A stretch of 64,000 bases of DNA from Planctomycetales bacterium (GTDB lineage: Bacteria > Planctomycetota > Planctomycetia > Isosphaerales > Isosphaeraceae). Location: assembly GCA_027452145.1 (NCBI GenBank), contig DAIDHB010000096.1, positions 1 through 64,000 of the forward strand, given 5' to 3'. Made by a program: the position numbers and the translations under genes. Below are positions 17,170-36,300 of the stretch, piece by piece. Each line of letters starts with the position of its first letter. Positions within the stretch are counted from its first letter, which is position 1. The notes below the pieces were generated by a model. The model was not told the origin of the DNA. It did not search any database and saw only the letters and a list, made by a program, of their open reading frames with translations.

Positions 17170-18009
17170 CTAGCGGTTCCCCTTCAAGCTAAGCCCCACG
17201 AACTCGCTCACCTGTCGCGCGATGGCGATCTCGGTCGGCAGCCGCTCCATCGAGCTGGCCCCATAGAAGCCATCCACGCCCGGCACCCGGTCCAGGATCG
17301 ACTGCGCATCGGCCGGATCCGCGATCGGGCCGCCGTGGCAGAGGACCAGCAGGTCGGACCTTACCGCCTTGCCCGCCTCGGCGATCGCGGCAACCTCGCC
17401 CACGCAGTCATCGAGCGTCTTCGCGGTCTTCGCGCCGATGGTCCCCTTGGTGGTCAGGCCCATGTGCGCCACGACGACGTCGGCGCCGGCCTCCGCCAGC
17501 AGCCTCGATTGCTCGGGATCAAAGGCATACGGCGTCGTGAGCATGTCGAGCCGGTGCGCCGCGGCGATCAGGTCGATCTCCAGGCCGAAGCCCATGCCGG
17601 TCTCCTCGAGGTTGGCGCGGAACATCCCGTCGATCAGGCCGACCGTGGGGAAATTCTGGATGCCGGCAAAGCCCATGTCCTTCAGCTCGCGGAGGAAATG
17701 GTCGCGAAGCATGAACGGATCCGACGCGCACACGCCCGCCAGCACGGGCGTCTGGCGCACGGCCGTGAGGACCTCGCGTGCCATCTCCTTGACGATCGCG
17801 TTGGCGTTGCCATAAGGCATCAACCCGGCCATCGACCCGCGGCCCGCCATGCGGAACCGGCCCGAGTTGTAAATAACGATCAGGTCGATGCCGCCAGCCT
17901 CCTCGCACTTGGCGCTGATGCCGGTCCCAGCCCCGCCGCCGATGATCGGCCGGCCCGAGGCGACCTTCTTCCGAAGACGCTCCACGATCGCCGCGCGTGA
18001 TTCCGCCAT
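17170..18009 (-). CDS. phosphoenolpyruvate hydrolase-like TIM-barrel protein
   Basis: The 279-residue protein belongs to the TIM-barrel family annotated as PEP hydrolase-like, which is the C-terminal half of the plant Tm-1 protein. Visible motifs are [19 protein letters not shown], the glycine-rich loop [18 protein letters not shown] and [10 protein letters not shown]. The biochemical role in bacteria is not settled. Its start codon overlaps the stop of the upstream Tm-1-like gene (TAATG), so the two products are made together and may form a complex. The stop lies ten bases from the convergent response-regulator stop. Confidence 0.8.
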
Positions 18010-19259
18010 TACCGAGATTCCTCGTGGGTTGGGCTTGCCGCCTTCGGGTCCAGCTCGAGATAGGCCGCGACCAGGGCCTGGGCGAAGGCGGGGTCGTTGA
18101 TGTTCCAGGGCAATCGCCGGATCGAGCGGCCGGGTCGTGGTTCGATCGCCGATTCCAGCTCGTCGATGAGCGCCGCGTCGGCCTCGGGGTCGAAAAACGC
18201 CCCTCCGGGCGCGTCGAGGGCCGAGACGCCGCCCTCGGGGACGAGCAAGGTGAACGGGGCCTCGGCCCGGTTGAGCTTCGCGGCGATCCAGCGGGCGATA
18301 CGGCGGTTCTCGTCGGGCGTCGTGCGCATCAAGGTCGCCTGGGCATTGTGGACGTGAAGTTTGCGCTGCCGGAACGCGACGGGGACCGTGCCGATCGCGC
18401 CGAAGTTGACCATGTCGAGCGCCCCCAGGCTGAGCACGTAGGGCACCCTCGCCCGGAGGATCGCCTCGAACCGCGCCGGGCCGGCAGGCAGGATGCCGCC
18501 GACGACCTCGTCGGCGACCTCGGTGGTGGTAATATCCAGCACACCCTGGACCAGCCCGGCCTCGACGAGCTTTTCCATCGCGCGTCCGCCCGTCCCCGTG
18601 GCGTGGAAGACCAGGGCGTCGAATCCGCGGGCCTCGAGCGCCTCGCGGACGGCCGTGACGCAGGGCGTTGTCACGCCGAACATCGTCATCGCGACGGTCT
18701 GCTTCTCGCCGGCGGTGGGAATTGCGTGCGCGACCATCCCGGCCATCGCGTGCGCCGCGTTGCCGAGGACGCGTCGCGAGACGGCATTGATCCCTGCGAC
18801 GTCGACGACCGGGTAGAGCATGAAGATGTCGCTGGAGCCGACGTAGGGCGCGACATTCCCGCTAGCGATTGTCGAGACCATCAGTTTGGGCATGCCCACC
18901 GGCAGCGCCTGCATGGCCGGCGCCAGAAGCGCCGTATTGCCGCTGCCGCCGATGCCGATCACGCCGGCGACCTTCCCGGCCCGGTGCTCGCCGACGAGGA
19001 AGCCCGTGAGGGCCTCGCTCATGGCGGTGATCGCCACGCCCCGGTCCGAGCGGCCGAGCGCCGCCGATCGGCCTGAAGCAGTCGGATGACAGCTCACGAC
19101 CGCCTCGCGACTCACGTCGGGCGGCTCGACCGGCGGCTCCAGCGTCCCGACGTCCACGGTCACGACCCGGATGCCGGCCGCTCGCAGCCGCCCGGCGACG
19201 TACGCTAGCTCGTGCCCCTTCGTATCCATCGTGGCGACGGCGTAGACTGATCGACTCAT
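18009..19259 (-). CDS. Tm-1-like ATP-binding domain protein (UPF0261)
   Basis: This 416-residue protein matches the UPF0261 family, the N-terminal half of tomato Tm-1, which binds ATP in the plant. It starts [20 protein letters not shown] and has [55 protein letters not shown] and a C-terminal [18 protein letters not shown] block. ATG 19259 fits the family N-terminus; the frame extends further without homology. It is coupled to the TIM-barrel gene and follows the zeta-toxin partner by 34 bases on the same strand. The metabolic role is unknown. Confidence 0.82.
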
Positions 19260-19293
19260 CGTTCTCGCTCCGTCGCGCCGCCGGGTGCCCGCA

Positions 19294-19494
19294 TTACGAC
19301 CCGACGTCCTCTCGGGGGACCTCGATCTCCTCGGCCGGGATCCAGACGACCTTGCCCTCGCGCCAGACGACGATGGGCTGGCCGAGGCGCTTGTGGCGAT
19401 CAATAGCCCGGACGGCCGCCCTGTGAATCGCCTGCTCCACCAGGTCGGTCTCGAGCATGAGCGATTTCAGTTCTTCGCTCTTTTCAACCTTCAT
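19294..19494 (-). CDS. small acidic/basic protein coupled to the zeta-like kinase
   Basis: The 66-residue product begins with a mixed-charge helix (MKVEKSEELKSLMLETDLVE), continues with HRAAVRAIDRHKRLGQP and ends in a short strand region (VVWREGKVVWIPAEE). I do not recognise a named family, but small partners of this kind are common next to zeta-toxin-like kinases. It overlaps the kinase gene by 11 bases, which suggests co-translation. An antitoxin role is possible. Against it, the gene is downstream of the kinase, whereas epsilon antitoxins are usually encoded upstream. Confidence 0.6.
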   Translation of the reverse strand: MKVEKSEELKSLMLETDLVEQAIHRAAVRAIDRHKRLGQPIVVWREGKVVWIPAEEIEVPREDVGS

Positions 19495-20080
19495 GGTGTG
19501 AGCCTTTCTGAATCCGCTCCCACGTCAGCGAGTCCGCGACCTCGGTAACGAATTCGTATTCTCCAGCGGCGATGAGCCGCACCCGGGATGCCTCGGAATT
19601 ATCGCAGAGTTTCCAGGTGCGTGCCATCGGCTGATAGAGCTCGAAGAAGTTCCTGAACCCCGCCTCATAGCGCCGGCGGATCGTCGCCTCGGGTACGTCA
19701 TGCCCGCCATCTCGAACCCTCGCGGCCACCCGGGCCACGGCGAGATCCGGATGCGGTAGCCAGAGAAAGACCAGATGGAACTGATACCCGTCCCGGATCA
19801 GTCCCGCGATCCAGGGCGCAAACGATCGGCTGGCCAGCGTGGTCTCGAACGCGAAGCTCACCCGCCGCCGTGCCAGCTCCTTCACTCGCGCGAGCATGAT
19901 CCGCCCCGCCGCCAGTCCGGCACGCTCGGGCTCGAAACCTGATAGCCCCCGAGCAATGACATCGGCGTTGACGAACTCATCGACACCGAGGGCGTCCCTT
20001 AGGATCGCCGACGCCGCCGTCGACTTCCCGGCGCCGTTCGGGCCGGCCAGGACGACGAGGTTCGGCGACGAGTCGGCCAT
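19484..20080 (-). CDS. zeta-toxin-like P-loop kinase
   Basis: This 198-residue protein has Walker A AGPNGAGKST at residues 12-21, NADVIARGLSG, the FETTLASRSF segment and FLWLPHPDLAVARVAARVRDGGHDVPE, which match the zeta-toxin/UDP-GlcNAc kinase-like group. Classical zeta toxins phosphorylate UDP-N-acetylglucosamine, but many chromosomal relatives have unknown substrates. ATG 20080 has AAGGGGA upstream and lies only three bases after the oleD stop, so it is probably co-transcribed with the ole genes. A small partner gene overlaps its 3' end. Confidence 0.78.
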   Translation of the reverse strand: MADSSPNLVVLAGPNGAGKSTAASAILRDALGVDEFVNADVIARGLSGFEPERAGLAAGRIMLARVKELARRRVSFAFETTLASRSFAPWIAGLIRDGYQFHLVFLWLPHPDLAVARVAARVRDGGHDVPEATIRRRYEAGFRNFFELYQPMARTWKLCDNSEASRVRLIAAGEYEFVTEVADSLTWERIQKGSHHEG

Positions 20081-20083
20081 TTC

Positions 20084-21106
20084 TTAATCCCCTTCGCCGC
20101 CATGGAGCCACCGCTCGAGCCGCGCGAGCCCCTGGGCGATGCTGACGCGCGGCTCGTAGCCGAAATCGCGGCGGGCGGCGTCGATGCGGAACCAGTGCGT
20201 CGTCGAGAGCTGCCGGGCCAGGAACCGGGTCATCGGCGGCTCGCCGCCGCGGCCCGAGAGGCGATAGAACGCCTCGAGGCTCCCCGCGCCGACCAGGGCG
20301 AGCGGCCGGCTGATCGTCCGCCGCACCGGATCCATGTGTGCGGCCTTCAACAGGGCATCGATCATATCCCACACGGCGATCGTCTCGCCCTGGGTGAGGA
20401 AATACGCCTTCCCGGCCACCGGCGAGCCGGGGATCAGCCGATCGGCGGCCAGGACGTGGCCCTCCGCGGCGTTATCGATATACACCGGGTCGATCAGGGC
20501 GTTCTTGCGGCCGATCCTGCGCAACCGGCCGCTCCGCGCCCGCGCGATGATGCGGGGCAGCAGGTTGTTGTCGCCGGGTCCCCAGATCAGGTGCGGGCGC
20601 AACGACACGGTCGCCAGGCGGTCGGAATTGGCGGCCAGGACGAGCTGCTCGGCGATTGCCTTCGTCTCGGGATACGCCGCCTCGAACCGGCCGGAATACG
20701 GCGCCGATTCGTCGGCACCGGCGAGGTCCTGGCCGTTGAACACCACGCTCGGCGAGCTGGTGTAGACCAGCCGAGGCGCCCCGGCGGCGAGGCACGCCTC
20801 GACGACGTTGCGAGTGCCGTCGACATTGGCCCGGCGATACTCGTCCTCGGGTCCCCAGAGCCCCGCCTTCGCGGCGGTGTGAAAAACGGTCTGGCATCCC
20901 TCGACCGCGCGCGAAACGGCCGATGCGTCGGCCACATCGCCCGCGACCTGTTCGATGCCCATCGTCTCCAGGTGGGAATAATGCCGCCGCGAGAGGCTGC
21001 GTACCGGGAGCCCGCGGGCGTGCAGCAGGCGAATGATGCCCGTTCCCAGGAATCCCCCGCCGCCCGTCACCAGCACGCGGCCCAGCGCCCCGCTCGCCTC
21101 GCTCAC
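20084..21106 (-). CDS. oleD: OleD, NADPH-dependent 2-alkyl-3-ketoacid reductase
   Basis: OleD reduces the beta-keto acid made by OleA to a beta-hydroxy acid in head-to-head olefin synthesis. The 340-residue protein is an extended short-chain dehydrogenase of the 3-beta-HSD type, with the nucleotide-binding VLVTGGGGFLG near the N-terminus and the YPETK catalytic motif at about residue 150. Alone it could be any NAD-dependent epimerase/dehydratase; the assignment rests on its place after oleC, oleB and oleA. It starts with GTG overlapping the oleC stop (GTGA), with GGAGG five bases upstream. Confidence 0.85.
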   Translation of the reverse strand: MSEASGALGRVLVTGGGGFLGTGIIRLLHARGLPVRSLSRRHYSHLETMGIEQVAGDVADASAVSRAVEGCQTVFHTAAKAGLWGPEDEYRRANVDGTRNVVEACLAAGAPRLVYTSSPSVVFNGQDLAGADESAPYSGRFEAAYPETKAIAEQLVLAANSDRLATVSLRPHLIWGPGDNNLLPRIIARARSGRLRRIGRKNALIDPVYIDNAAEGHVLAADRLIPGSPVAGKAYFLTQGETIAVWDMIDALLKAAHMDPVRRTISRPLALVGAGSLEAFYRLSGRGGEPPMTRFLARQLSTTHWFRIDAARRDFGYEPRVSIAQGLARLERWLHGGEGD

Positions 21107-22809
21107 GACACCCTCCTGCCGGCCCAGTCGGCGAGCTTCTCGCGAAAGATCTTGGAATTGTGGCGGATATCCACCGGGAACGACGGATGAAAGAGCAGCG
21201 TGCGAATCCGCCGCGTGTGGGCGAACCCGGCGGCGTGCCCGAGCAACTCGCCGCGCAGCCGGTCCCGCTCCCCTTGTGTGAGCCGCCGCACCGTCTCGAT
21301 GCAGATCACCGGTATCCTTTCGCCGCCGACCTCGACGCCCACCAGCGCCGAGCGGTGGACATCCGGATGCGTGTTGAAGATCGCCTCGCAGGGGATCGTG
21401 AACAGCGTCTCGTCGGCCAGGATCACGCGATGAGCCTTGCGGCCGCAGAACCAGATCCGGCCGCGATCATCGAGATAGCCCAGGTCGCCCATGCGATGCA
21501 GGACGCCCTCGCGACGGCGGTCCACGATCTTCGCCTGCGCTGTAGCCTCGGGGCGCTCGAAGTATTCGCGCGTGACGACCGGCCCGGAGACGACGATCTC
21601 GCCGATCGTGCCCGGCGGGACGAGCCATTCGTCGGACCACTCGGGGATCGGCCCGTCGTCGATGCGGATGATTCTCACCTCGATCCCCTCGACCGGCAGC
21701 CCCACGCAGACGCCGAGGCCCCGGTCGGTGGCGTGCCGCGTCTCGCCCAGGATCTCGTCGCTGCCGATCGAGGCGACCGGCAGGGCCTCGGTCGCTCCGT
21801 ACACGGTATGCACCTGCGCTGGTGGCGAAAGCCGAGAAGCCATCCGCTCGATCGTTCGCGCCGGAACCGGTGCGCCGGCCGAGACCACCCGCCTGAGGCC
21901 AGGCAGCCGCTCCAGGCGATCGCCCTCGCCCCGCACGAGCTGCCGCAACAGAGCCGGCGAGCCGAACAGGTTGGTCACGCCAAATGCGTTGATGGCACCG
22001 ACGATCCGCTCGGGATTGGCCCGGGCCGGCCGCGTCGGGTCCATCTCGGGGACGATGGCCGACATCCCGAGCGCCGGCGCGAACAGGGCGAACAGGGGGA
22101 ACGTGCAGAGATCCACCTCGCCCGGCCGGATGCCGAACATGGCGCGGATCATGGACACCTGCGCGTCGAGGATCCGGTGCGTGTACACCGCCCCCTTGGG
22201 CGGGCCGGTGCTGCCACTGGTGAACAGGATCGCGGCCGGTTCGTCGGGTGCGAGCGGTTCGAAATCGACCGGGCCGGCAGGCCGTCGCTCGTGCGCCTCG
22301 CGACCCAGCCGCACCACGGCGGCGAGCGGGACCGCGGGCAGCGAGCGGCCCAGCAGGCCGTCACCGACGACGATCCGGCGCCGGACGGTCGCGCGTCCCC
22401 AGCCGAGCACCAGCCCGGCCGCGATCGCCTTCGGGATGCCGATGAAGACCTCGGGCCGGGCCTCGCCGCAGCACTGTTTCAGGTTGCGCGGGCCGATCCC
22501 CGGGTCGATCAGCACGGGCACGATCCCGGCCTTCAGGACGCCGAACACCAGCGCAAAAAGCTCCACGCCCGGCCCGACCATCAGCACCGCGCGCGTCCGG
22601 GGCACGATGCCGATCGCCCTGAGCCCCAGGGCGATCTCGTCGCTGATTTCGTCGAGCTGACGGTAGGTCAGCCCGGCGCCCAGGGACCCGGCATTTCGTC
22701 CCCGACGCGCCGGGTCATGGACCGCCGGGGTATCCGGCTGCCGGCCGGCCGCCTCGGCGAGCCATCGGGCGATGTTCGGCGAATCCGTCCTCGCGAATGT
22801 CGGGGTCAA
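21103..22809 (-). CDS. oleC: OleC, AMP-dependent beta-lactone synthetase
   Basis: OleC uses ATP to close the beta-hydroxy acid from OleD into a beta-lactone. The 568-residue protein is an adenylate-forming enzyme with the P-loop ILFTSGSTGPPKGAVYTH, VYGATEALPVAS, the aspartate in HRMGDLGYLDDRGRIWFCGR and the C-terminal lysine in HNSKIFREKL. The FGSPALL and GAPVP wording is that of OleC rather than general acyl-CoA ligases. A TTG start at 22809 overlaps the oleB stop (TTGA) and has GGAGGT six bases upstream, so it is preferred to the longer open frame. Head-to-tail overlaps with oleB and oleD indicate an operon. Confidence 0.87.
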   Translation of the reverse strand: MTPTFARTDSPNIARWLAEAAGRQPDTPAVHDPARRGRNAGSLGAGLTYRQLDEISDEIALGLRAIGIVPRTRAVLMVGPGVELFALVFGVLKAGIVPVLIDPGIGPRNLKQCCGEARPEVFIGIPKAIAAGLVLGWGRATVRRRIVVGDGLLGRSLPAVPLAAVVRLGREAHERRPAGPVDFEPLAPDEPAAILFTSGSTGPPKGAVYTHRILDAQVSMIRAMFGIRPGEVDLCTFPLFALFAPALGMSAIVPEMDPTRPARANPERIVGAINAFGVTNLFGSPALLRQLVRGEGDRLERLPGLRRVVSAGAPVPARTIERMASRLSPPAQVHTVYGATEALPVASIGSDEILGETRHATDRGLGVCVGLPVEGIEVRIIRIDDGPIPEWSDEWLVPPGTIGEIVVSGPVVTREYFERPEATAQAKIVDRRREGVLHRMGDLGYLDDRGRIWFCGRKAHRVILADETLFTIPCEAIFNTHPDVHRSALVGVEVGGERIPVICIETVRRLTQGERDRLRGELLGHAAGFAHTRRIRTLLFHPSFPVDIRHNSKIFREKLADWAGRRVS

Positions 22810-23717
22810 TGCGCGACCTCCAGCGCCAGGGGATGGGCCAGCAGGAACGAGCGGACCAGCGGATTGACGGCCTCCGGCACGTCCTCCAACAGAAGGTGCC
22901 CGGCCTCGGGAAACCGATGGACCTCGGCATCCGGGAACCGTCGCACCCACTCGTCCAGCACCGGCTCGTCGAAGACAAAGTCGAGCAGGCCCCAGGCGAT
23001 CATCATCGGAACGCCCCGGAGCAGCGGCAGCCGCCCCTCGAGCCACGAGATCAGGGCGAACGACCGATCGCCGGGCCGGAGCGGGATGTCCTGGACGAAC
23101 CGGTGAATGGCGATCCGGTGCTCCCAGGAATCATAGGGGGCCGCGTAGGCTGCGCGGATATCCCCGGGCAGCCGCCGCGTCTTGCAGCCGATCCAGCTCG
23201 TCCCGCGGACGAACAGGTTCATCCCCCGCGCCAGCCAGGCGCCGACGGGCGAGTCGCGAAACAGCGACAGGGCCGACGGAAACGACTTCCCGGCCGGCTT
23301 TTGGAATGCCGCCGTGTTGGTGACGACCAGCCGTGCGATCCGCTCGGGATACCGGGCCGCGTAGGTCATCCCGATGATCCCGCCCCAGTCGTGCAGCACC
23401 AGGGTCAAATCGCGGTCGAGGCCCAGCCCGTCGAGCAGCGCCTCCAGGTCGTCCACTCGCGAGTTGAGCGTGTAGTTGTATCGCGAGTCATCCGGCTTGT
23501 CCGAGAGCCCGCATCCGATGTGATCGGGGACGATCACCCGGTACTCCTCGCGCAGGTCGTCGACCAGGTGCCGGTAGTAGAACGACCAGGTCGGATTGCC
23601 GTGGAGCATCACCACCGGCTCGCCCGCGCCCTCGTCGAGGTAATGCAGCCGCAGCCCGTCGCGGTCGAAGTCGCGACCCGGGTGATCGGCCAGGAATTGC
23701 TGCAAGATTCGGTTCAT
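22806..23717 (-). CDS. oleB: OleB, beta-lactone decarboxylase (alpha/beta hydrolase)
   Basis: OleB removes carbon dioxide from the cis-beta-lactone to leave a cis-olefin. The 303-residue protein is an alpha/beta hydrolase of the haloalkane-dehalogenase type, with MLHGNPTWSFYYRHLV (oxyanion region), the nucleophile Asp110 in LVLHDWGG, the acid region LLDFVFDEP and the histidine in PEAGHLLLED. The aspartate nucleophile and the HGNPTWSF motif are shared by OleB and dehalogenases; the gene context decides for OleB. It starts with ATG 24 bases after the oleA stop and overlaps oleC by four bases. Confidence 0.86.
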   Translation of the reverse strand: MNRILQQFLADHPGRDFDRDGLRLHYLDEGAGEPVVMLHGNPTWSFYYRHLVDDLREEYRVIVPDHIGCGLSDKPDDSRYNYTLNSRVDDLEALLDGLGLDRDLTLVLHDWGGIIGMTYAARYPERIARLVVTNTAAFQKPAGKSFPSALSLFRDSPVGAWLARGMNLFVRGTSWIGCKTRRLPGDIRAAYAAPYDSWEHRIAIHRFVQDIPLRPGDRSFALISWLEGRLPLLRGVPMMIAWGLLDFVFDEPVLDEWVRRFPDAEVHRFPEAGHLLLEDVPEAVNPLVRSFLLAHPLALEVAH

Positions 23718-23741: not shown

Positions 23742-24794
23742 CTACCAGTCGAGTCCGAGCATCATGCAGTTGAGCCCGCTGCCGATCCCCAGGAAGGCGA
23801 CCCGGTCGCCCCGCTCGAGGAAACCGCGGTCCTCGGCCAGGCCCGCGGTCAGCGGCAGCGAGACCGTGCCCATGTTGCCCAGGTACGGGAACGTGGGGAA
23901 ATCCTTCGTCTCGGGGATGCCCAGCAGGCGGAGGATCGTGTCGCGGTGCGACGTGCCCACCTGGTGGCAGATCACCTTGTCGACGGCGTCGGCCGACCAG
24001 CCCAGTTCCTGCAAAAAGGCCCGCCAGGTCTTCGTGCCCAGCTCGACGCCGTTGGACAGCACGGCCGCCGCGTCCGTCGCGGTGAATTGCTGGTAGGACC
24101 GCGACCCGTTCGAGCCGACCGCGTCGATGCCCCAGCGGCACAGGTCGTGGAACTCGGGCGCCGTGCGCCAGACGCCGCCCTTGAGCTTCCGCGCCTCGCC
24201 GCCGCCGAACGATCCATCCGTCAGCAGCACAGCCGCGGCACCGGACCCGCCCGTGAGCGTCGCGAGCGACGTCTTGAAGAACTCCATCGTCGGGTTCTGA
24301 AGCAACTGGCCGATCACGATCTCGTTGATCTCGCGCGACGCCTCGCAGGCGACCACCATCCCGGCCCGCGCCTGGCCCCACTCGATCCGGTTGGCGATCT
24401 CGAGCACCCCGTTGAGCAGCCCCAGGCAGGCGTTGCTCACGTCGTACACCGCGGCCTCCGGGCCGACGCCCAGCGACGCCGCAACCCGGCAGGCCGTCGC
24501 CGGCTCGAAGTACTCGCGGCAGACGGCGCCGTAGATCAAAACGTCGAGCTGGTCGGCACGCAAATCGGCCGCCTCGAGCGCCCGACGCCCGGCCGCGATC
24601 GCACCGTCCGACAGGCGATGCCCGTCCTCCCACCACCGCCGCTCGGCGATCCCGGTCAGGGCCTCGAGCTGCCCCTCGCCCAGGTGGAGCGCCGAGTACA
24701 CCCCGGCAAGCTGCCGCTCCAGCTCCAGCGACGTCACCACCACCGGCGCGATCTCGTAGCCGATGGCGTCAATGTAAACCTTGCTATAATTCAT
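23742..24794 (-). CDS. oleA: OleA, thiolase-fold acyl condensing enzyme
   Basis: OleA joins two fatty acyl thioesters head-to-head by a non-decarboxylative Claisen reaction, giving a 2-alkyl-3-keto acid. The 350-residue protein has the FabH-like thiolase fold with active cysteine 123 in SNACLGLLNG, a CREYFEPATA segment with the conserved glutamate, CHQVGTSH and GNMGTVSLPL. It lies 59 bases after the stop of the KS-CLF-AT-DH-DH megasynthase gene on the same strand and heads the oleABCD set. The ATG at 24794 has no strong ribosome-binding site, which is odd for the head gene of a coupled block. Confidence 0.9.
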   Translation of the reverse strand: MNYSKVYIDAIGYEIAPVVVTSLELERQLAGVYSALHLGEGQLEALTGIAERRWWEDGHRLSDGAIAAGRRALEAADLRADQLDVLIYGAVCREYFEPATACRVAASLGVGPEAAVYDVSNACLGLLNGVLEIANRIEWGQARAGMVVACEASREINEIVIGQLLQNPTMEFFKTSLATLTGGSGAAAVLLTDGSFGGGEARKLKGGVWRTAPEFHDLCRWGIDAVGSNGSRSYQQFTATDAAAVLSNGVELGTKTWRAFLQELGWSADAVDKVICHQVGTSHRDTILRLLGIPETKDFPTFPYLGNMGTVSLPLTAGLAEDRGFLERGDRVAFLGIGSGLNCMMLGLDW

Positions 24795-24853
24795 GATGCG
24801 ATGGAATGCTCAGTCGATCGATCCGGAGGCGGGATGGACCACGAATTCGGTTT

Positions 24854-27800
24854 TCAGCGGACGGAGGGCTGCATCTGGCGAGAGTCGGCCCAGAGGGTTT
24901 CCAGCTCCTCGCGCCGCGTCCCGGATAACTGGAGCGCCAGGTCGGTGACCGAGACGATCGGCCGGCCGTCGGCGATGATCAGGGCATCGGCGATCGCGTA
25001 AGGCTCGGGCCGATAGCCTCGCTCCTTGATCGCGACCTCGTAGGTCACCCGGCGGGTCGATTCGGTGATCTGGCCGCGACATTTCAGGCGGTTGGCCACG
25101 CCGGGGACGGGCTCGAAGGCCGCCTTCTCCCTCGAGCCGACCCAGCCCAGCCGCATCATCAGGATCCGCAGCGAATGCAGGCAGCACTCGTACATCAGAG
25201 TCCCCGGCATGACCCGGTCGTCTACGAAGTGGCACACCATGTACCAGTCGCCCGGCCGCACGTCGGCCTCGGCCCGAATCAGGCCGAGCCCGGCCGGACC
25301 GCCCGAGGGGTCGAGCACCTCGACGCGCCGGAGCATCGCCATCAGTCCGCCGGGAAGTCCGACAACTTCCGCTAGCCGCAGGCGATCGAACGGGGCGCCG
25401 AAGACCGCGCCCAGCTCGCCCCGGCGCAGCGCCTCCACCGCCGCCTCGTCAAGGCGCGACGGCGACGACGACGCCGGCACCAGGTCGTCCGGCCGATCGA
25501 TCGCGAACGACGCGGCCCGTCGCGAGTCGAGCCGAGCAGGCGTGATCCCCTTGCCGGAGGCGAGTTCCTCGGCCGTGAAGAAGCCGGCACAGCCGTCCCG
25601 CATCGTGATCAACGGCTCGCCCGCCACGGTGGCATCGTACTCGAAGCGGAACAGGATCGTCGTCCCCTGGCGGAAGAACTTCGTGATCCGGATATCATAG
25701 CGCAGGACGTCGCCGACCACGGGCAGCCGTCGGTGGAAGGTGACAGTGGCATCCAGCAGGCGGTAGACGGACTGGCCCTGCGTCAGAAAATCGACGCCCA
25801 GGTATCCGCTCAGCACGAGATCGGCCTGGCCGGCCTCCATCGCGACGCAGGGCGCCACGCGGCCGCCCTCCACGTACCAGGCGCCCGGCCGCACGTCGTG
25901 CTCGGTGACGATCCGCCCCTCGGCCATCGAGCGCGGCCGACCCTCCAGCGCGGTGATCCGGTCGACGAACATCAACGGCTCGTCGGGCAGCCGGACCCGC
26001 GTCGGCAGCCGGTCGACCTCGGCGAACTCGGGCCCAAACACCGCGGCGACCGAGCCAACGGCCAGCTCGAGACATTGCCGGCGATCGTGGAGCACGGGCG
26101 AGGCGTCCAGGAGCACCGTAAAGTCGTCATCCACCGGCTCCCTCGAGTCGATCTCTTCGTCCTGTGCCGATGATACCGAGCCAGCCCGGGCGATCAGGTC
26201 GAGCTGTTTCGCGATCTGCCGGCCGATGAGGTCGGCGGCGTCCTCCGCCAGTTTCAGATACGCGCGATGGGCCTCGATCCGGGCCTGTTCGGCGGCGGCC
26301 ACCCGTCCGGCGAGGCCGGGCAGAACCACCGCTGGGAGGTCGTCCCCGGCCTGCGCCATGGCGGACTGATCCTCGGCTTCGATCCGATGAGTTCCGTTGA
26401 GCTGGAGCATGCTGGGCACCGTGGCCTTCGCCGGCGCCTTCCGGCGCGAGGGCAGGGGGGTTACATGGAATTCGCCGGGCCCGATCGCGACGCGCACGAC
26501 CGGCCGCGGCCGCGCATCGGTTCCGGGCGCCTCCGCGTCGGGCGGCCCATAGATCGTAGAGAGGTCGACCGGCCGTCGCGCAGCGACCGAGGCGGCGAGC
26601 ACATCCAGGACCGCCCCGTACGCGTCCCGGTCCGGCCGGCACGCCGAAACGGCCGTGTGCGGCCGCTCCCCGAGGATGCGGCCGATCAGCCGCGTGCAGG
26701 AACTTCCGGGGCCTGCCTCGATGAATAGCCCGACGCCATCGGCGTAGGCGGCCTCAACGGTCCCCGCGAAGTCGATCGGACGGGTCGCCTGGGCCGCAAT
26801 CGCGTCGGCCGCCGTCGATCGGTCCAGCGCATAACGGCTGGCGGTCACACCGCTGTAAAACGCGATGCCCTCGGGCGCGGCGGTCGCGACGTCGTGCAGC
26901 TCGCGGTACTCGGATTTCACGGACCGCCCGATCTCGCAATGGACCGTGCCGACCGCCGGCAGCTCCAGCCACGGACATCCGATCCGGCGCACCAGCTCGA
27001 CGACCTCGCCGCGCTCGCCGCCGATCACCGTCTCATCCCGGGTGTTGCGAATCAGCGAATAGACCCTGGTCAATCGGGAGGCCTCGATCGCCGTGCGCAC
27101 GTCCTCGATCGCTCGCGGTACGATTCCCGCGGCCCAGTCCGCAGCACGGTCGGCAGGCAGGCCCCACGCTCGCCTCGCGGCCTCGCAGGTCCCCGAGAGC
27201 TCCGTGGCGAAGAGGCGCGAGGAGAGCAGCCGTCCCGCCAGCTCGTCGCGGTCGCTCCACGCCCGAAGCGCCACGAGAGCGGCCGATTCGCCCATGCTGT
27301 AGCCGATCGCCGTGTCCGGAACGATCCCGAGCGATCGCAAGATATCCGTCACCTGGCTGCCGACGGCCACCTGGCCCAGGATCGGGGTTCGATGATCGGC
27401 GAAGCGCGGCAGGTCGCCGCCGCCCCACCAGACCTCCGGCGGGAGCTGATCGTGCAGGCGACGGCTCTCGCGCTCCTGCCGGCGCACGACCTCGGGCCAA
27501 AGCAGCCCCAGCTCTCGCCCCATGCCTGCGAAGAAGTTACCGAGCCCCGGATAGACGAACGCCACGCCGCGCGGCTGGCCCGGTTGCGGCAGGTAAACAG
27601 TGCCTCCCTCGCACCGGCTTGCATCGGTCCGGCCCGCGCGAATGGCCGACCGGGCGGCGTCCAGCAGGCGTTCGAGAGCGTCAATCCCGTCGGCGACGAC
27701 CGCGAGGCCTATCGGCTGCCGATGGTCGCCCGGATGGAGTCGCCACCATCGACGCGCCAGGTCGTGGACCCTCAATCCCGAAGCGTCGCGAGCCAGGGCT

Positions 27801-30364
27801 GCGAGCTCGTCGATCCGCTCCCGCAGGGAGTCGGGCGAATGCCCCTCGATTGCGAACAGGCCGGAGCGGCGAAGCCGATCCACCGAGACCAGGCGCTCGC
27901 TCGCCTGCAATTCTGGACGCGCTCCTCGGGGTCTTTCCGCAACCTCGACCCGCGTCAAGCGCCGCGCCTGGTTCGTGTTGACGACATCGAGTCGCAACGG
28001 CGGATCGCCCGGTGCCCTTAGGAAGAGCTGCGCCGGCACATGCACACCCTGGGGCCAGACTCCATCCGGCCTGACCTCATCGTGGAGGCAAGCCACGATC
28101 CGGACAACCTCGAGCAGCCCGGTTGCCGCTCCGGCCGGCCCCGGAATCGAGCTCGGAGCGCCCGCGGTCGAGTCGACCCGGTGAATGACGGCGAGGATCC
28201 GCCGATCCTCACGGATCGCGTCATCGAGCCGGCGAAGGACCAGGCAGACCGCGGCATCCTCGCCATCGTCGGGGGAGCCGCCGAGATGCTGCCGCGCGAG
28301 CGCCGCGCGGGGATCGCCGGCCAGGTCGATCGCCCCGACGATCGCGGCGTCGACCTCGCCCCGGCGAAGCCAGTCGACCGCGATCGCCGCCGCCTGGAGG
28401 CCCGAGGTCTCGTCGCACGACACCGAGAGACTGGGCCCGCCAATGCGGAGCTCGCGGGCGACCCGGCTGGCGACCACCCCGCCCAGCGAGCCCATCGTCC
28501 GGTCCGCGGAGAGCGCCGGGCCCGCGGCCTCGCGCAGCTCGCCGGCCCACGAGGCCAACTCGTCGTGGGATAGTCCCAGGTCCAGCTCGTCATTCCAGCG
28601 CCGGGCGCTGTCCGCGATCGACCACCGCAGGTAGAAGTTCGTCGTGTTCAGGTCGAGCCCCGTCCCGATCACCACGGCCGTCCTCGGACCGAGCCCCGCG
28701 TCCCAGCCCGCGCCCTGGATCGCGTCGCCGGCCACTCGCAGCATCAGCGACTGCTGGGGCAGCATCGCCGCAAGCTCCCGGGGCGGGATGCGGAACTCGC
28801 CCGCCTCGAATTCCAGCGTCCGGAGCCGCCGGCCGCCGCTCGAAACGGGCTCGCCCAGGACAAGGTCGCCCAGCACATCGGAACCGCGCCCCTGCCCGAG
28901 CTGAATCCCCAGGCCGACGATGGCGATCGGACAGCCTTCCCCAGCCGAGGAAGGAGCCGAACCATGCGGCCGCTCGGTCACCGGCACCACCGCCGAGTTC
29001 ACCCTCGATGGCACCCATTCTTCGACCAGGACGTGGGCATTCACGCCGCCGAAGCCGAATCCGCTGATCGCCGCACGGCGAGGCCGGCCGGGTCCGCGTG
29101 CCGGCCAGGGCTCCGAGGCGCCCAGCACCCGGAACGGCGTCTCTCCGGATTCCAGGCCGACACACGGACGGTCGATATTCGCCGTCGGGGGGAAGGTCTG
29201 GTGCCTCATCGCCATCAGGACCTTGATCAGCCCGGCCGCGCCGGCGGCTGTCAGCGGGTGTCCGATGTTCCCCTTCACCGAGCCGATCACGCACTCCCCG
29301 GGCCGACCTTCCCCGTGCTCCCACAGCGCCGTCAGGCTCGCGATCTCGACAGCATCGCCCCGCGGCGTCCCGGTGGCGTGGCATTCGATCAGGTCGACAT
29401 CGCGCGGGTCCCAGCCCGCCTGTTCATAGGCCCCCCGCATCGCCCGGAGCTGCCCGTCGCGATCGGGAGCCATCAGGTCGCCCTGACCGTCGTTCGACAG
29501 GCCGATCCCGGCGATCACGCCGTGAATGCGATGGCCGTCTCGCACCGCGTCGGCCAGCCGCATCAGCACGAACATGCCGGCGCCCTCGCCGACGATCAAT
29601 CCGTCGGCACCGGCATCCAGCGGCGCCGCGCGGCCCTTCGGCGACAGGGCCCGAAGCTGGCAGAAACCCATCTGCGTGTAGAGCGAGTCGGGCCGCGAGA
29701 CGCCGCCGGCGATCATCGCGTCGGCCCGCCCGGCGATCAGCTCGTCCGAGGCCAGCTTCAGGGCATACAGCGACGATCCGCAGGCCGCGTCGAGCGCGTA
29801 AGCGACGCCCCCCAGGCCGAACGCCTCGGCGACGATCGCGGCCGACATCCCGGCCAGATGGAGGTCGGCCGGATGAAACCGTCGTTCCTCTCGCGCGGCA
29901 AGCCCGAGCGCCCGCTCGAACTCGTTTCCGAGCAAATCCAGCGACACCGACGAGGCGGCCTGGGTTGGCAACAGGATGTTGCCGAGAATCACGCCCGTCC
30001 GGCCTCGGTCGAGCGAGCCTGTGGCCGCGTCGTTCCACGCCTGCGACGCCGCGCACAGGGTCAGGTGGAACATCGGGTCGAGCTGCTCGATAAAATCAGG
30101 GTCGAGCCGCGTGCCCCGTGGGTCGAACCGCACGGGATCGACGAACCCGCCGCGCGTGGTGTAGACCCGGTCCGGCTCGGCGATCCGGGTGTCGAGCACC
30201 TCGCCGGAATCGACAGGCCAGCGATCGCGCGGGACCTCGCGAGTGAGGTCCCGACCGGCAAGGACGTTCGCCCACAGCCGGTCGGGACAGTCCGAGCCGG
30301 CGAAGATCCCGCCCATCCCGACGATCGCGATGGCTCTACGGCTCGATGGAAGATCGAAAGCCAT
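24854..30364 (-). CDS. polyunsaturated-lipid synthase subunit, KS-CLF-AT-DH-DH (Pfa3/PfaC-like)
   Basis: The 1836-residue protein is a multidomain fatty acid/polyketide synthase. In order: an active ketosynthase (1-460; Cys195 in DAACGSS, ECHATGT, GNIGHPLTAAG); a second KS-like domain (about 480-830) with VSCDETSG around Cys650 but no catalytic histidines, a chain length factor; an acyltransferase (about 920-1250; Ser1023 in GYSMGES); and two FabA-type hotdog dehydratases (about 1420-1590 and 1620-1830). The second dehydratase keeps the His motif (VCHFVDDRVMPG, His1712); the first has lost it. This order matches myxobacterial Pfa3 except that the C-terminal glycerolphosphate acyltransferase is missing. 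It starts three bases after the upstream megasynthase stop. Heterocyst-glycolipid-type synthases are the main alternative relatives. Confidence 0.88.
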   Translation of the reverse strand: MAFDLPSSRRAIAIVGMGGIFAGSDCPDRLWANVLAGRDLTREVPRDRWPVDSGEVLDTRIAEPDRVYTTRGGFVDPVRFDPRGTRLDPDFIEQLDPMFHLTLCAASQAWNDAATGSLDRGRTGVILGNILLPTQAASSVSLDLLGNEFERALGLAAREERRFHPADLHLAGMSAAIVAEAFGLGGVAYALDAACGSSLYALKLASDELIAGRADAMIAGGVSRPDSLYTQMGFCQLRALSPKGRAAPLDAGADGLIVGEGAGMFVLMRLADAVRDGHRIHGVIAGIGLSNDGQGDLMAPDRDGQLRAMRGAYEQAGWDPRDVDLIECHATGTPRGDAVEIASLTALWEHGEGRPGECVIGSVKGNIGHPLTAAGAAGLIKVLMAMRHQTFPPTANIDRPCVGLESGETPFRVLGASEPWPARGPGRPRRAAISGFGFGGVNAHVLVEEWVPSRVNSAVVPVTERPHGSAPSSAGEGCPIAIVGLGIQLGQGRGSDVLGDLVLGEPVSSGGRRLRTLEFEAGEFRIPPRELAAMLPQQSLMLRVAGDAIQGAGWDAGLGPRTAVVIGTGLDLNTTNFYLRWSIADSARRWNDELDLGLSHDELASWAGELREAAGPALSADRTMGSLGGVVASRVARELRIGGPSLSVSCDETSGLQAAAIAVDWLRRGEVDAAIVGAIDLAGDPRAALARQHLGGSPDDGEDAAVCLVLRRLDDAIREDRRILAVIHRVDSTAGAPSSIPGPAGAATGLLEVVRIVACLHDEVRPDGVWPQGVHVPAQLFLRAPGDPPLRLDVVNTNQARRLTRVEVAERPRGARPELQASERLVSVDRLRRSGLFAIEGHSPDSLRERIDELAALARDASGLRVHDLARRWWRLHPGDHRQPIGLAVVADGIDALERLLDAARSAIRAGRTDASRCEGGTVYLPQPGQPRGVAFVYPGLGNFFAGMGRELGLLWPEVVRRQERESRRLHDQLPPEVWWGGGDLPRFADHRTPILGQVAVGSQVTDILRSLGIVPDTAIGYSMGESAALVALRAWSDRDELAGRLLSSRLFATELSGTCEAARRAWGLPADRAADWAAGIVPRAIEDVRTAIEASRLTRVYSLIRNTRDETVIGGERGEVVELVRRIGCPWLELPAVGTVHCEIGRSVKSEYRELHDVATAAPEGIAFYSGVTASRYALDRSTAADAIAAQATRPIDFAGTVEAAYADGVGLFIEAGPGSSCTRLIGRILGERPHTAVSACRPDRDAYGAVLDVLAASVAARRPVDLSTIYGPPDAEAPGTDARPRPVVRVAIGPGEFHVTPLPSRRKAPAKATVPSMLQLNGTHRIEAEDQSAMAQAGDDLPAVVLPGLAGRVAAAEQARIEAHRAYLKLAEDAADLIGRQIAKQLDLIARAGSVSSAQDEEIDSREPVDDDFTVLLDASPVLHDRRQCLELAVGSVAAVFGPEFAEVDRLPTRVRLPDEPLMFVDRITALEGRPRSMAEGRIVTEHDVRPGAWYVEGGRVAPCVAMEAGQADLVLSGYLGVDFLTQGQSVYRLLDATVTFHRRLPVVGDVLRYDIRITKFFRQGTTILFRFEYDATVAGEPLITMRDGCAGFFTAEELASGKGITPARLDSRRAASFAIDRPDDLVPASSSPSRLDEAAVEALRRGELGAVFGAPFDRLRLAEVVGLPGGLMAMLRRVEVLDPSGGPAGLGLIRAEADVRPGDWYMVCHFVDDRVMPGTLMYECCLHSLRILMMRLGWVGSREKAAFEPVPGVANRLKCRGQITESTRRVTYEVAIKERGYRPEPYAIADALIIADGRPIVSVTDLALQLSGTRREELETLWADSRQMQPSVR

Positions 30365-30367
30365 CGC

Positions 30368-33300
30368 TCAGCTCGCGTTCACGGGGATGGAGTCAACCAG
30401 GCGATTGCGGCGGAATGCCCGGGCGAGCGAGGCATCCACCACACACTCGTACGACTCGATGCTGGCCACGACCTCGCCGCGGGCGTCCAGAATCTGGATA
30501 TCGGCCACCGCCCGCGACGGGCTCGCCTCACGAATCTCGGCCGCGACCCGGACCTGCCGGCCGCCGAAGTCGGGCCGGTACTGACGGTAGCGCCCGACCG
30601 CCGTCGGCAACGAGCTGGCGCCAAGCTGCTCGTGTGTCCAGAGCACCACGAGCTGGAAGGCGCAGTCGATCGCCAGCGGGTCGGTAATCCACCGCGAGCG
30701 CAGCGGCCGGTCGACCCACCGCGACGGCGACGGTGCGGTGAGCACCTGCCCGGTGATCCCGCGCTCGCCCGCTCCCTCCACCGCCTGAATTCCCTGCATC
30801 GCCGGGCCGTGGAACAGGGTCTTCGTGTAGATGCGGTCGACCTCCCAGCCGCAAGGCGGAAGTTGAAGCCCTTCGGCGCGGCGAGGCGGCGCGGGATGCC
30901 GCGCCGCCAGCAGGACATTCGCCCGGCAGTGCAACGACTCGCGCCCTTCCGGCGTGACGCTGCGCAGCTCGACGGGCACGCGATAGGTATCGCCCTCCCG
31001 CAGGCACTTGCCCGCGCCGACCTCGAGCGTCACCCCGTCTCGCTCGCCGTCGCCCAGCACCAGCCCCTTGAACAACCGCAGGTCGTCGACGCCGCACACC
31101 ACGAGGCCGGGGTTGCGCTGGAGCGCTCCCTCGGCGCACCACTCGAGCAGAATCGCCATCGGCACGACCGGCCGGCCGTCGATTACGTGGTCAGCCAGTA
31201 CGGGCATGGACGACACATCCACCCGTCGACGATGGACCGTCTCGAGCCTCTGGGCGGCCGGCGCGACGGGCGTCGGCGCCTCCGCGACGCGATGCTCCGC
31301 CGGGACCGCGATCGGCGCCGCCGGCAAATCCCCGGCCAGAACGACGACCTCCACCGGACCGGGCCCGGAATGCTCGGCGCGGATCTCATCGACCACGAGC
31401 TGTGCCCCCAGCTCGGTCGGAATCAGTCCCAGCCCTTCCTTCTCGAAGACCGTCCGGAGCGCCGAGTCCACCATGCCGCCGGCCCAGGGGCCCCAGTTGA
31501 ACGATACGACCCGGCAATCCGGCCAGCGGACCGCCGCGCGCTGGGCCCACTTGTTGAGGTACTCGTTGGCCGCCGCGTAAGCCACCTGGCCGGCACGCCC
31601 GTACCGCGCCGTTGACGACGAGAACAGCCCGAGGAAGGTCAGCTCCTCGGGATCGATCGCGTCGAAGAGGTTCTGAAGGCCCGCGACCTTCGTCCGGTAG
31701 ACCAGCGCGAACTGCTCGTCGGTCTGGTCGAGGATGCGACGATCGGCCAGCACGCCGGCGCCGTGGATCAGCGCCCGCACGGGACCCCACTCGGCGCGGG
31801 CACGAGCGATCAACTCCGCCACAGCGGCGCGGTCGCGGACGTCCACCGAGCGATATTCGACCCGAGAGCCGGCCGCCGCCATCCGCGCCAGGTTCGCGCG
31901 AACCTCGCGGGCCGCCAGGATGCGTCGGGCCGTCTCGCCGATGACCTGAGGCGACCGGCCACGCTCGGGCCCCGTCGAGAGGTAGCGCCGGAGCGCCGCC
32001 TCGTCGCGACAGGCGAGCAGTTCCGCATCCTCCTCGGCCGCCGGCGCCGCGCTCCGGCCCAGAAGCAGCAGGCGGACCCGGAATTCCCGCGCCAGCGCGA
32101 CGGCCACCTCGGCCGTGATCCCCCGCGCGCCACCGCTGATCACGACCAGATCATCCGGGCCGAGCCGGGCCCTGCCGGCATCCGAACGACGCGGCCGGAC
32201 CGCCGGGACGACTTCGACCGCCAGGCGCCTCTCGCCATCAAGGCCGACCTCGTCGGGCCCGCAGATCACGAACTCGTCCGCGATCGCCGACGCGGCCTGA
32301 CGGACCGGTCCGAGGCCGCTTCCCAGGTCAAGCGCCTTGCACGCCACGGACGGCCACTCTCGCGCCGCCGTCTTCGCCAGGCCGGCCATCGCCCCCGAGG
32401 CCACGTCCACTTCGGGCCGCAGCCCCTCGATCCCGAACCGGCCGTCCAGCCGCGAGACCGTCACCAACGACGCGCACCCGGCCCTCGCGGCCCGCTCGAG
32501 CGCCGGGCCAACCGCGCGAATCCAGCGGAAGCCCTCGCTCGCCAGGTCCGCCGATCCGGCCCTCGCCAGCACGATCAGGCCGCAGAAGGCCTCGTCCGCC
32601 AGGATGTCCGGCGTGTCGTGGCCCCGGATCACGCGCGAGCGAAAACCCCTCGCCTCCAGCTCCGACCGCAGCGCACCGGTCAATTCGGTTCCGTCGTCGA
32701 GGATTCCGACCATGCCGCCCGCGGGCAGACCGAGCGTTTCGCGTGCATCGTGCCGCGGCAATGTCCGGATCCGCGGCACAAGGAGCCGGAGCGCGACCCC
32801 GTCATCGGCGGAGACCTCTCCCCGTGCGGCACACCCACCATCGTTCGCCCCCGGAATACACCGGCCGGATTCCTCCACCTGCGACCCGGAGAGGAACACG
32901 ACGATGTCGCCCAGCGTTTGCAAGGCTCCGGCCTGATCGGGGCCGATCGCCTGTGTTTCGGGCAGGCGATCCTGCACCGCCGAGAGGATCTCGACCCGTT
33001 TGATCGAGTCGATGCCCAGATCGTCGTCCAGCCGCATCCCCAGCTCGAGCATCTCGACGGGATAGCCTGTTTTCTCCGCCACGGCCTCCAGCAGCACGCG
33101 GGCGACGGCCGCCTCCCCGGCGGCATCACGGCCGTCGGGAATCGACGCCGCGACTTCCGGCGCGATTCGCGCTTCGTCGAACCGCGACTGCCTCGCCCCG
33201 ATATCGCCGTTTGATGGCTCCCCGCCCCGCGACAACCGGACGGTCGCCGCGACGTCGCCGAGCGTCCGGAGCGTCCCGATCACGTCCGGCCCGAGGTTGG

Positions 33301-36300
33301 TGCTCCACGGCAGCCGTTCCTGGAGCGCCGAGAGGATCTCGACCCGCTTGATCGAGTCGATCCCCAGGTCGTCGTCGAGCTTCATCTCCAGCTCGAGCAT
33401 CTCGACGGGATAGCCTGTTTTCTCCGCGACCGTGGCGAGCAGCGTGCGCGCCACCTCATCGTCGCCCTCGCTCTTCGCCGCAACAACCGCGGTCCCGACC
33501 GTGACCTTGACCTCGGCCTCGCTCGCACCCTGGAGATACTCGCCGATCGCCCCCAGCGTCCGGAACGACGCGAGCCGCTCGGGTGACGGCGAGGGCAGCC
33601 CGGGATACCGTTCCTGGAGCGCCGAGAGGATCTCGACCCGCTTGATCGAGTCGATCCCCAGGTCGTCGTCGAGTCGCATGTCAAGCCCGAGGACTTCCGC
33701 CGGATATCCGGTCTTCTCGGAGACGACCTCCAGCAACGCGGCGACCGCCTGTCCGCTGGTGGCAGAGCCAGCGCTCGGGGCGGCCACGGCGCGAACCTCC
33801 GCCTGCGCGACGACCTCGGGAGTTCGGCGCTCCGCTGGTGCGGCCGGCGGAGATCCATGCCCATTCGCCGCCGCCGAATCGGGACGGGGCCGGACCGGCG
33901 AAGGCGCCGCGTGAGGTTCCTCCGCCCCGTTCCTCAAAACGGCCGATTTCCCGGCCGCCACCGGTGCGCCCACCCGAGCGTGCGCCGGCTCCGGCCTCCC
34001 ATTCACGGGCTGGATTCCCGCACTCGACCCATCGGCCTCGACAAAGGCACGACTCTCACGGGTCAGCTCCTGGCGCTGCTCGAGAAGGCGCGCGAACGTC
34101 TGCTGGACCTTCTCCTGCCCCTGGAGGAACAGGCGATGCAGCTCGGCGGTGTGTTCAGCCAGGCGCTGGAGTGCCTCGAGGTTCTCCTGGCCCTCGCGGA
34201 TCGCCCGATGCAGCTCGTCGGGCCGGACCTTCGCCGTTGCGTCGAGCCGGTCTGTCACTCGAGAGCCCGGCGGGCCCGCGGGCTCCGCGATCGCCATCGT
34301 GCCGGCGGGAGCGTGCCCGTTATTCCGAGGTGGACAAAGCGGCCCCTGGACAGGATTCGTCATTCGATCGTTCCCGGCGTGATATCGTGGCGGGAGGGCG
34401 AGAGCACTGGCACCGCTGTCTTCCTCCGACTCCCCGGCGGGCAGACGGGCCGCGATCGCGGGCGGAACGCCGGCGCGCCGCGGGGTAGGCAAGACCGACT
34501 CGAGCTCGACCGCCCGCGGCCGCGGCTTCTCTGCGTCGCGCACCGTCGGACGCAAATTGGCACCCGAGATGGACACTGTCGGCCCCGGCCTCCGGGGCGC
34601 CACGGGTTCCGCAGCCCCCCCAGCATCCCAGCGGCTCAGGTCAACAGCATACCCCAGCGCGGCGAGCGTTGCGAGCGCGCAGGCCAGGTCCACAGCGTTG
34701 CCGCGTGCCCCGCTCGACGCGTCCACCGAGAACGCGGCGTGGGCGCGCCCTTCGAGCGTAGCACGGACGAGGCCCGTGAGCCGCGCGCCGGGGCCGACCT
34801 CGAGGAACGTGCGGGCGCCGGCCCGGTACATCGCCTCGACCTGTTCGACGAATCGGACCGGACGGGCGAGCTGTTCGGCCAGCAGGTCGCGGGCCAGCTC
34901 GGGCTCGGCCGGATAGGCCTCCGCGGTCGAGTTGGCGAAGACCGGGATGGCGGCAGGACGCAGGTCGGCGGCCGCAAGCTCGCGGCGAAATGGCACCCGC
35001 GCCGACTCGACGAACCGGCTGTGAAAGGCCGCCGACACGGGGAGCACCCGCGTCCCGATTCCGCGCTCCGTCAGGACCTTTCCGGCCCGCTCGATCTCGG
35101 GCGACGGTCCCGACAGCACGCACTGCGCCGGGGCGTTCCGGTTGGCGATCACCAGGTCGAGCCGATGTTCGCGGAGCGCGGCCTCGACCCGATCCGCCGC
35201 GGCGAATGCCGCCAGCATCCCGCCCGTCCCGGCCGCGGCACAATCTCCCATGAGGGCGCCCCGGACTCGCGCCAGCCGCCAGAATGTCGCATCGTCGATC
35301 CGGCCGGCGGCGCGGAGGGCCGTCAGCTCGCCAAAGCTGTGGCCGCCGACCAGATCCGGCCTCACGCCGAAGTCATCGAGGACTCCCAGCAGACCCAGGC
35401 TGATCGCCCCGATCGCGGGCTGGGCAAATCTCGTGTCGCGCAGCGCCGCCTCGTGCGCGTCGCGCGCCCGGTCGTCGAACGCCGACGGCGGATAGATCCG
35501 ATCGGACAGCCGACGAGAATCGGCGGCGTTCAGCTCGCGATCCGCCGCGCCGAGCGCGGACTGCATCCTGGGGAACTGGCAGGCCAGTTCCCGGAGCATG
35601 CCGACATACTGGGAACCCTGGCCGGGGAAGAGCAGGGCCAGGCTCCCCGGCGTTGAGCCCGACCCGGCGAAAACGCGGGCCTCCCCGCCCTCCGGCCGCG
35701 ATCGCTCATACCTCCGGCCGTTCGCCCCATCTGCCGCCGTCGCCTCAACCCGATCACGCGCCTCCGCAATCAACGCCGACAGGTCGCGACCGCCCCGCTC
35801 GACGACGACGAGCAGCCGATACCGGCCCTCAACCCGGAAGTCCGCCCGCGTCCTCGCGCAGATCGTCCGCACCTCCGGCCATCGGACCGGGTCCGGCAGG
35901 GCGTCGAGCTGGCGGACAAGCGCCTGCGGATCGTCGGCCGAGAACGCCAGGATCTGAACGTCCCCGTCCCAGTCGGCGGCCAGCTTCTCGGGCTCGGCCT
36001 CCTCGAGGACGCAGTGGAAGTTGCTGCCGCCGAAGCCGAACGCGCTGACCGCCGCCCGCCGCGGCGCGTCGGCCGAGGCCGGCCATGGGCGAGCCGCGTC
36101 ATTCAGGTAGAACGGCGAGTCCTCCCGCGCGAGCGCCTCGGCCGGGCGGCGGACCTTCAGGGTCGGCGGGAGGACCTTGTGATGCAGCGCCAGCGCGGCC
36201 TTGATCAGCCCCGCCGCCCCGGCCGCCGCCTTGGTGTGTCCCACCTGCGACTTCACCGAACCGATCGCGCACCACGGGCCGCCCTCGCGCCCGCCCCGAT

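Follow-up and report, generated by a model that had tools for sequence, protein, structure and literature searches.

A Pfa3-type synthase subunit that ends shortly after its dehydratase region, with oleA as the next gene, raises the question of which part of the subunit is missing and how the finished acyl chains leave the synthase. The earlier note on this DNA had taken a terminal acyltransferase to be lacking and had proposed that OleA replaces the usual release step. Here the locus is analysed within the whole stretch of DNA of 64 kb, referred to as the window, and in its relatives.

Organization of the pfa-ole cluster

The cluster belongs to the known Type I "secondary lipid" clusters (pfa1-pfa2-pfa3-oleABCD), here from a member of the Isosphaeraceae, and is a variant with a single dehydratase. 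It comprises the following features:

37596-39179, minus strand: pfa1, a pfaD-type enoyl reductase gene, first in the cluster (PF21607 and PF03060)
30368-37399, minus strand: pfa2, a pfaA-type gene encoding KS-MAT-3xACP-KR-DH, the DH being of the PKS type (Pfam domains)
24854-30364, minus strand: pfa3, a pfaBC-type fusion (ORF, 1836 aa) encoding KS-CLF-AT-(pseudoDH1-DH1), without DH2 unit and without AGPAT
24795-24853, minus strand: intergenic stretch of 59 bases between pfa3 and oleA
23742-24794, minus strand: oleA, a thiolase-fold acyl condensing enzyme (structure matches and catalytic residues)
22806-23717, minus strand: oleB, an alpha/beta hydrolase and, by position and family, predicted beta-lactone decarboxylase (order conserved)
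21103-23046, minus strand: oleC, an AMP-binding enzyme and predicted beta-lactone synthetase (order conserved), the true start of which probably lies below 23046
20084-21106, minus strand: oleD, an NAD(P)-dependent reductase of the 3-beta-HSD/epimerase type (order conserved)

The same gene order is common to Isosphaeraceae, other planctomycetes, Geobacter/Geomonas, an Acidobacterium, and Uabimicrobium. In relatives, the pfa1 homologues are 70-74% identical and precede pfa2. Pfa2 carries three LGIDSIKRVEIL carrier sites near aa 1250, 1348, and 1464, and the motif HVIDGRPVVP is kept in its PKS-type DH. Complete oleABCD is situated directly downstream of pfa3, with the spacing of 59 bases already given in the earlier note; the span 23742-30364 highlighted there includes pfa3, but covers oleA as well. 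For 62 of the 66 listed loci with enough sequence, oleA is located directly downstream of pfa3 (58 within 300 bp), and a 4-base overlap of the two genes is common among the listed loci. Loci with this adjacency occur in Isosphaeraceae, Geobacter/Geomonas, an Acidobacterium, a Lentisphaeria bacterium, and others. The family assignment of the cluster is based on named relatives. Outside the Planctomycetota, the nearest relatives of the Pfa3 DH1 among the matches listed belong to Geobacter and the Desulfuromonadales.

In two members of the window's genus, the stop codon of pfa3 overlaps the start codon of oleA as ATGA (L081:9203-9300, L082:4023-4120), which suggests translational coupling in these genomes, while the window has the 59-base spacer.

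The sources for Type I clusters are Shulse and Allen 2011 (PMC3098273) and Yoshida 2016 (PMC4882568). In Geobacter bemidjiensis and Gemmata obscuriglobus, the cluster resembles that of the window in that the ER gene comes first, a KS-MAT-ACP-KR subunit, a fused KS-CLF-AT-DH subunit, and tandem oleABCD are present, and an AGPAT is absent. Unlike in these two organisms, the second FabA-type unit is absent from the window and the PPTase gene is unlinked.

Domain composition of Pfa3

Within Pfa3, the following features were identified:

29000-30337, minus strand: ketosynthase (PF00109/PF02801; active-site Cys194; HATGT/KGNIGH motifs)
27965-28954, minus strand: chain-length-factor domain (SCDETSG)
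26669-27559, minus strand: internal acyltransferase of the PfaB type, Ser1023 (GYSMG) and His1142 (PF00698)
24890-26179, minus strand: sole FabA-type dehydratase unit (PF07977, FabA alignment, double hot-dog model)
25616-25990, minus strand: pseudo hot-dog (weak PF07977 match, 22 bits)
24947-25357, minus strand: catalytic hot-dog (DH1), His1712 (strong PF07977 match, 103 bits)
24854-24889, minus strand: short C-terminal tail with the stop codon; at this point Pfa3 of relatives runs on into a second dehydratase unit

Pfa3 thus is a pfaBC fusion in which KS-CLF-AT is followed by a FabA-type DH region made of two hot-dogs. The active-site Cys of the CLF appears to be replaced by Glu within SCDETSG. 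As the earlier note had observed, the protein stops soon after its last hot-dog, namely 30 aa past the last FabA match. The order KS-CLF-AT-DH-DH, likened there to myxobacterial Pfa3, is correct in its coarse outline, but the second "DH" does not correspond to DH2 of PfaC or Pfa3. Pfam detects four FabA matches in the proteins of the relatives G030, G027, and G032 (pseudo, DH1, pseudo, DH2) versus two in the window, an AlphaFold2 model of Pfa3 aa 1396-1825 (mean pLDDT 86) contains one double hot-dog with FabA among the nearest folds, and the catalytic His of DH1 aligns with that of FabA. Therefore, the pseudo and the catalytic hot-dog together are one FabA-type unit, and Pfa3 of the window has one such unit where Type I clusters have two.

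A single loss of the second dehydratase unit

In relatives, the Pfa3 frame extends approximately 365 aa beyond the window's stop and encodes a second pseudo plus catalytic FabA unit with the motif AHFxxDPVWPGSLGLE. A family search with DH1+DH2 as query against 45 family genomes gave matches in 30. In all five genomes of the window's genus (G000-G004) and in the sister genome G008, the DH1 half alone was matched, and the DH2 sequence is present in the other 24 of the 30, among which G014 is counted by a contig-edge fragment only. Among the matches listed, the DH2 unit occurs in 75 of 79 resolvable named loci and is absent in L080-L083, which belong to the window's genus and the Isosphaeraceae MAG Centralia_MAG_412. 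This listing of 80 matches covers loci of Planctomycetota and of the Geobacter type besides a few others, and it overlaps partly with the 45 family genomes, so that the two counts are not independent. Due to the two FabA-type units of these 75 relatives, most of which have the same gene order, the cluster is filed as a variant of the Type I pfa-ole cluster.

In a tree of OleA, an independent gene, the genomes without DH2 (four of the five members of the window's genus were included) form one clade with a support of 99/96, in agreement with one change. The DH2 unit was lost once, namely in the clade that the window's genus forms with its sister, where all 6 genomes lack it. Except for G004, the six genomes are drafts with a completeness below 90% or a contamination above 5%; the pfa3 ends are nevertheless internal to contigs, and in each genome the DH2-less Pfa3 ends cleanly 8-11 aa past DH1. 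Nine residues of DH1 are specific to the DH2-less clade. Val1710 beside the catalytic His was considered as a compensating change in DH1 and rejected, as it is also present in DH2-bearing near relatives. No mention of a single-unit Pfa3 was found in the open-access literature. We regard this lineage-specific loss as real, clean, and modestly interesting.

The disappearance of a whole catalytic unit from a domain set that the 75 listed relatives keep could be read as the sign of a decaying, non-functional synthase. Given the long stop-free frames in the genus members with their catalytic residues kept, the protein identity of 64-80% over the matched length between the window and these members, and the clean ends described above, decay is quite unlikely, although a DH2-less synthase could be impaired. 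Replacement of DH2 in trans by a stand-alone FabA/FabZ enzyme is hardly more probable. Four further PF07977 genes are indeed present in the window's genome, but none is linked to the cluster and the relatives that keep DH2 have a matching set outside Pfa3; furthermore, no stand-alone DH2-like sequence was found elsewhere in genomes G000-G004.

In the absence of DH2, all dehydration and isomerisation is left to DH1 and the PKS-type DH of Pfa2. That both suffice is plausible, because in Thraustochytrium a synthase mutated in DH1 failed, while a DH2 mutant still made DHA (as cited in PMC9667614). It may be proposed, if only tentatively, that a PUFA-type synthase operates here on a single FabA-type unit, that the DH2 loss alters the number or position of double bonds, and that the OleA olefin differs from hentriacontanonaene. 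Close relatives with and without DH2 at the same cluster represent a natural experiment on the separate roles of the two FabA-type units, and their comparison could reveal the part of DH2 in double-bond placement.

Acyltransferases and chain release

The terminal acyltransferase that the earlier note had taken to be lacking is represented by the AT inside Pfa3, with Ser1023 and His1142 as its catalytic dyad; what is truly missing is the DH2 unit of about 365 aa. The best PDB match of this domain by sequence is PfaB of Shewanella baltica (9ry8, E 5e-23), which is also the best fold match of its AlphaFold2 model (mean pLDDT 86, E 6e-27), and the domain is thus nearer to PfaB than to malonyl-CoA transacylases. 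Similar to S. baltica PfaB (PMC12895367), it has the AT fold, a GxSxG motif (GYSMG) with Tyr before the catalytic Ser, and the catalytic His. It differs from S. baltica PfaB in being fused inside Pfa3 and in the His motif, GTVH/STVH versus [NT]A[IM]H. The catalytic Ser and His are invariant in 29 sequences. PfaB is described as the terminal acyltransferase that decides the final product and also transfers acyl groups to the carrier (PMC12895367), and long acyl-ACP/CoA is hydrolysed in vitro by AT domains of PfaB/OrfB, long acyl-ACP by the thraustochytrid AT (PMC9702510); whether PfaB serves in hydrolytic release or in acyl transfer is still debated in the literature. Since a PfaB-type AT with its Ser-His dyad is present, release chemistry is not absent, and judging from motifs and model, this release-type acyltransferase kept inside Pfa3 is predicted to act in off-loading.

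An AGPAT (PlsC) domain, PF01553, was found neither in Pfa3 nor elsewhere in the 64-kb window, in agreement with the earlier note, which had found no such gene nearby. The look-up of AGPAT and thioesterase genes suggested there reveals five PF01553 genes in the window's genome, all on other contigs. DH2-bearing relatives have 4-6 each, none of them on the pfa contig, and the five genes thus represent an ordinary complement. Thioesterases of the hot-dog (4HBT) type, PF13279 and PF03061, are likewise absent from the window, with all genomic matches on other contigs. In those listed named loci that include the stop codon, the tail after DH1 does not exceed 414 aa and is occupied by the DH2 unit, which leaves no room for an AGPAT tail in any of them.

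The myxobacterial clusters of Aetherobacter and Minicystis share with the window the order ER - KS/AT/ACP/KR/DH - KS/CLF/AT/DH. Unlike in the window, their Pfa3 contains two FabA-type DHs and a C-terminal AGPAT, in M. rosea a further PKS-type DH4 as well, and a linkage to ole genes, as given by oleABCD in the window, is not described for them in the accessible parts of PMC6731297 and PMC4882568, on which this comparison is based. An AGPAT-tailed Pfa3 is exclusive to the myxobacterial cluster type according to PMC4882568.

A tempting assumption is that Pfa3 originally ended in an AGPAT and that, once this terminal acyltransferase was gone, OleA became the release step instead. It would account for the lack of an AGPAT domain or linked AGPAT gene next to an adjoining oleA, and OleA of Shewanella can take chains from the Pfa carrier (PMC6463001). 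However, the sampled Type I relatives are AGPAT-less too, even where the dehydratase set is complete and oleA lies directly downstream, so that the adjacency of oleA predates, and is independent of, the loss in the window's lineage. The lost piece is a dehydratase unit, while the PfaB-type AT retains its catalytic dyad, and in G008 the DH2-less pfa3 and the ole operon are located on different contigs, from which it follows that the DH2 loss does not depend on adjacency. Taken together, an exchange of AGPAT for OleA is highly improbable. There is no sign that the Pfa3 lineage of the window ever had an AGPAT; Type I Pfa3 ends after its dehydratases. By the literature, AGPAT tails are peculiar to the myxobacteria, and Pfa release is assigned to the PfaB-type AT, which is still present here.

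OleA and the fate of the acyl chains

OleA aligns over its full length to the X. campestris-type OleA structures 3fk5 and 3row (E 1e-55) and keeps Cys123, His277, and Asn307 as well as the partner Glu97 of the thiolase fold. On this basis, it should condense two acyl thioesters head to head. The pfaABCDE and oleABCD genes of Shewanella/Photobacterium resemble the window in that OleA couples Pfa chains to a long-chain hydrocarbon (PMC6463001), and the catalytic Cys of OleA is at position 123 in both. Unlike in the window, pfaB and pfaC are separate and both DH units are present, and in most of these species a pfaT thioesterase gene is linked to pfa or ole (PMC6463001). In vivo support for a passage of chains from the Pfa carrier to OleA came from an E. 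coli fadD mutant carrying the Shewanella genes (PMC6463001), and a supply of the ole pathway by the Type I pfa clusters of Geobacter and Gemmata was put forward in 2011 (PMC3098273). By analogy, OleA of the window probably draws its acyl chains from the Pfa carrier domains. The earlier note was probably right in this point, but the idea is not new and this transfer replaces nothing that was lost.

As a whole, we consider the following explanation likely: a Type I pfa-ole cluster without AGPAT loss, with one DH2-loss event, carrier-to-OleA transfer, and off-loading by the AT. The product of Pfa1-3 would be a long acyl chain, probably polyunsaturated, assembled on the three carrier domains of Pfa2, with DH1 and the Pfa2 DH covering the dehydration and isomerisation steps. 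Two such chains, most likely received straight from the carriers, would be condensed head to head by OleA, and OleBCD would finish the olefin. Chains unused by OleA may be off-loaded by the PfaB-type AT inside Pfa3.

Alternatively, the cluster may be a dedicated olefin synthase, in which OleA is the sole exit, the AT serves chain-length control or starter handling, and no free polyunsaturated fatty acid is made. The near-universal coupling of pfa3 and oleA among the listed loci, often with overlapping frames, is consistent with this assumption, as is Geobacter bemidjiensis, which has the same gene order and makes C31:9 (PMC4882568); moreover, a PfaB that determines which product is finally made, and that also moves acyl groups onto the carrier, would fit (PMC12895367). 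Hydrolysis of long acyl-ACP/CoA by PfaB/OrfB AT domains in vitro (PMC9702510) argues against a sole exit, and in 4 of the 66 listed relatives pfa3 occurs without oleA in the available stretch, so that the synthase can exist apart. A dedicated olefin synthase is therefore quite possible, if short of probable. Concerning long-chain alkenes of planctomycetes, nothing usable was found in the open-access literature.

Additional genes

Phosphopantetheinyl transferase genes of the window's genome are located on contigs 353 and 380, unlinked to the cluster, whereas for Geobacter bemidjiensis the pfa-ole array is reported to close with pfaE. The gene directly following oleD on this strand encodes a small AAA/zeta-toxin-like kinase (19484-20080), and also downstream of oleD are a UPF0261 gene and one for a PEP-hydrolase-like protein (17170-19403). 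A UPF0261-like frame likewise follows the separate ole operon of G008 (L057). Contig 63 of G005 encodes a second, divergent Pfa3 (approximately 40% identical) with both dehydratase units. On contig 275 of the window's genome (L060), a second, different iterative synthase is encoded (KS approximately 40%, AT, KR domain), and G003, G004, and G008 have counterparts of it; it is another secondary-lipid or polyketide system, separate from the pfa-ole cluster.
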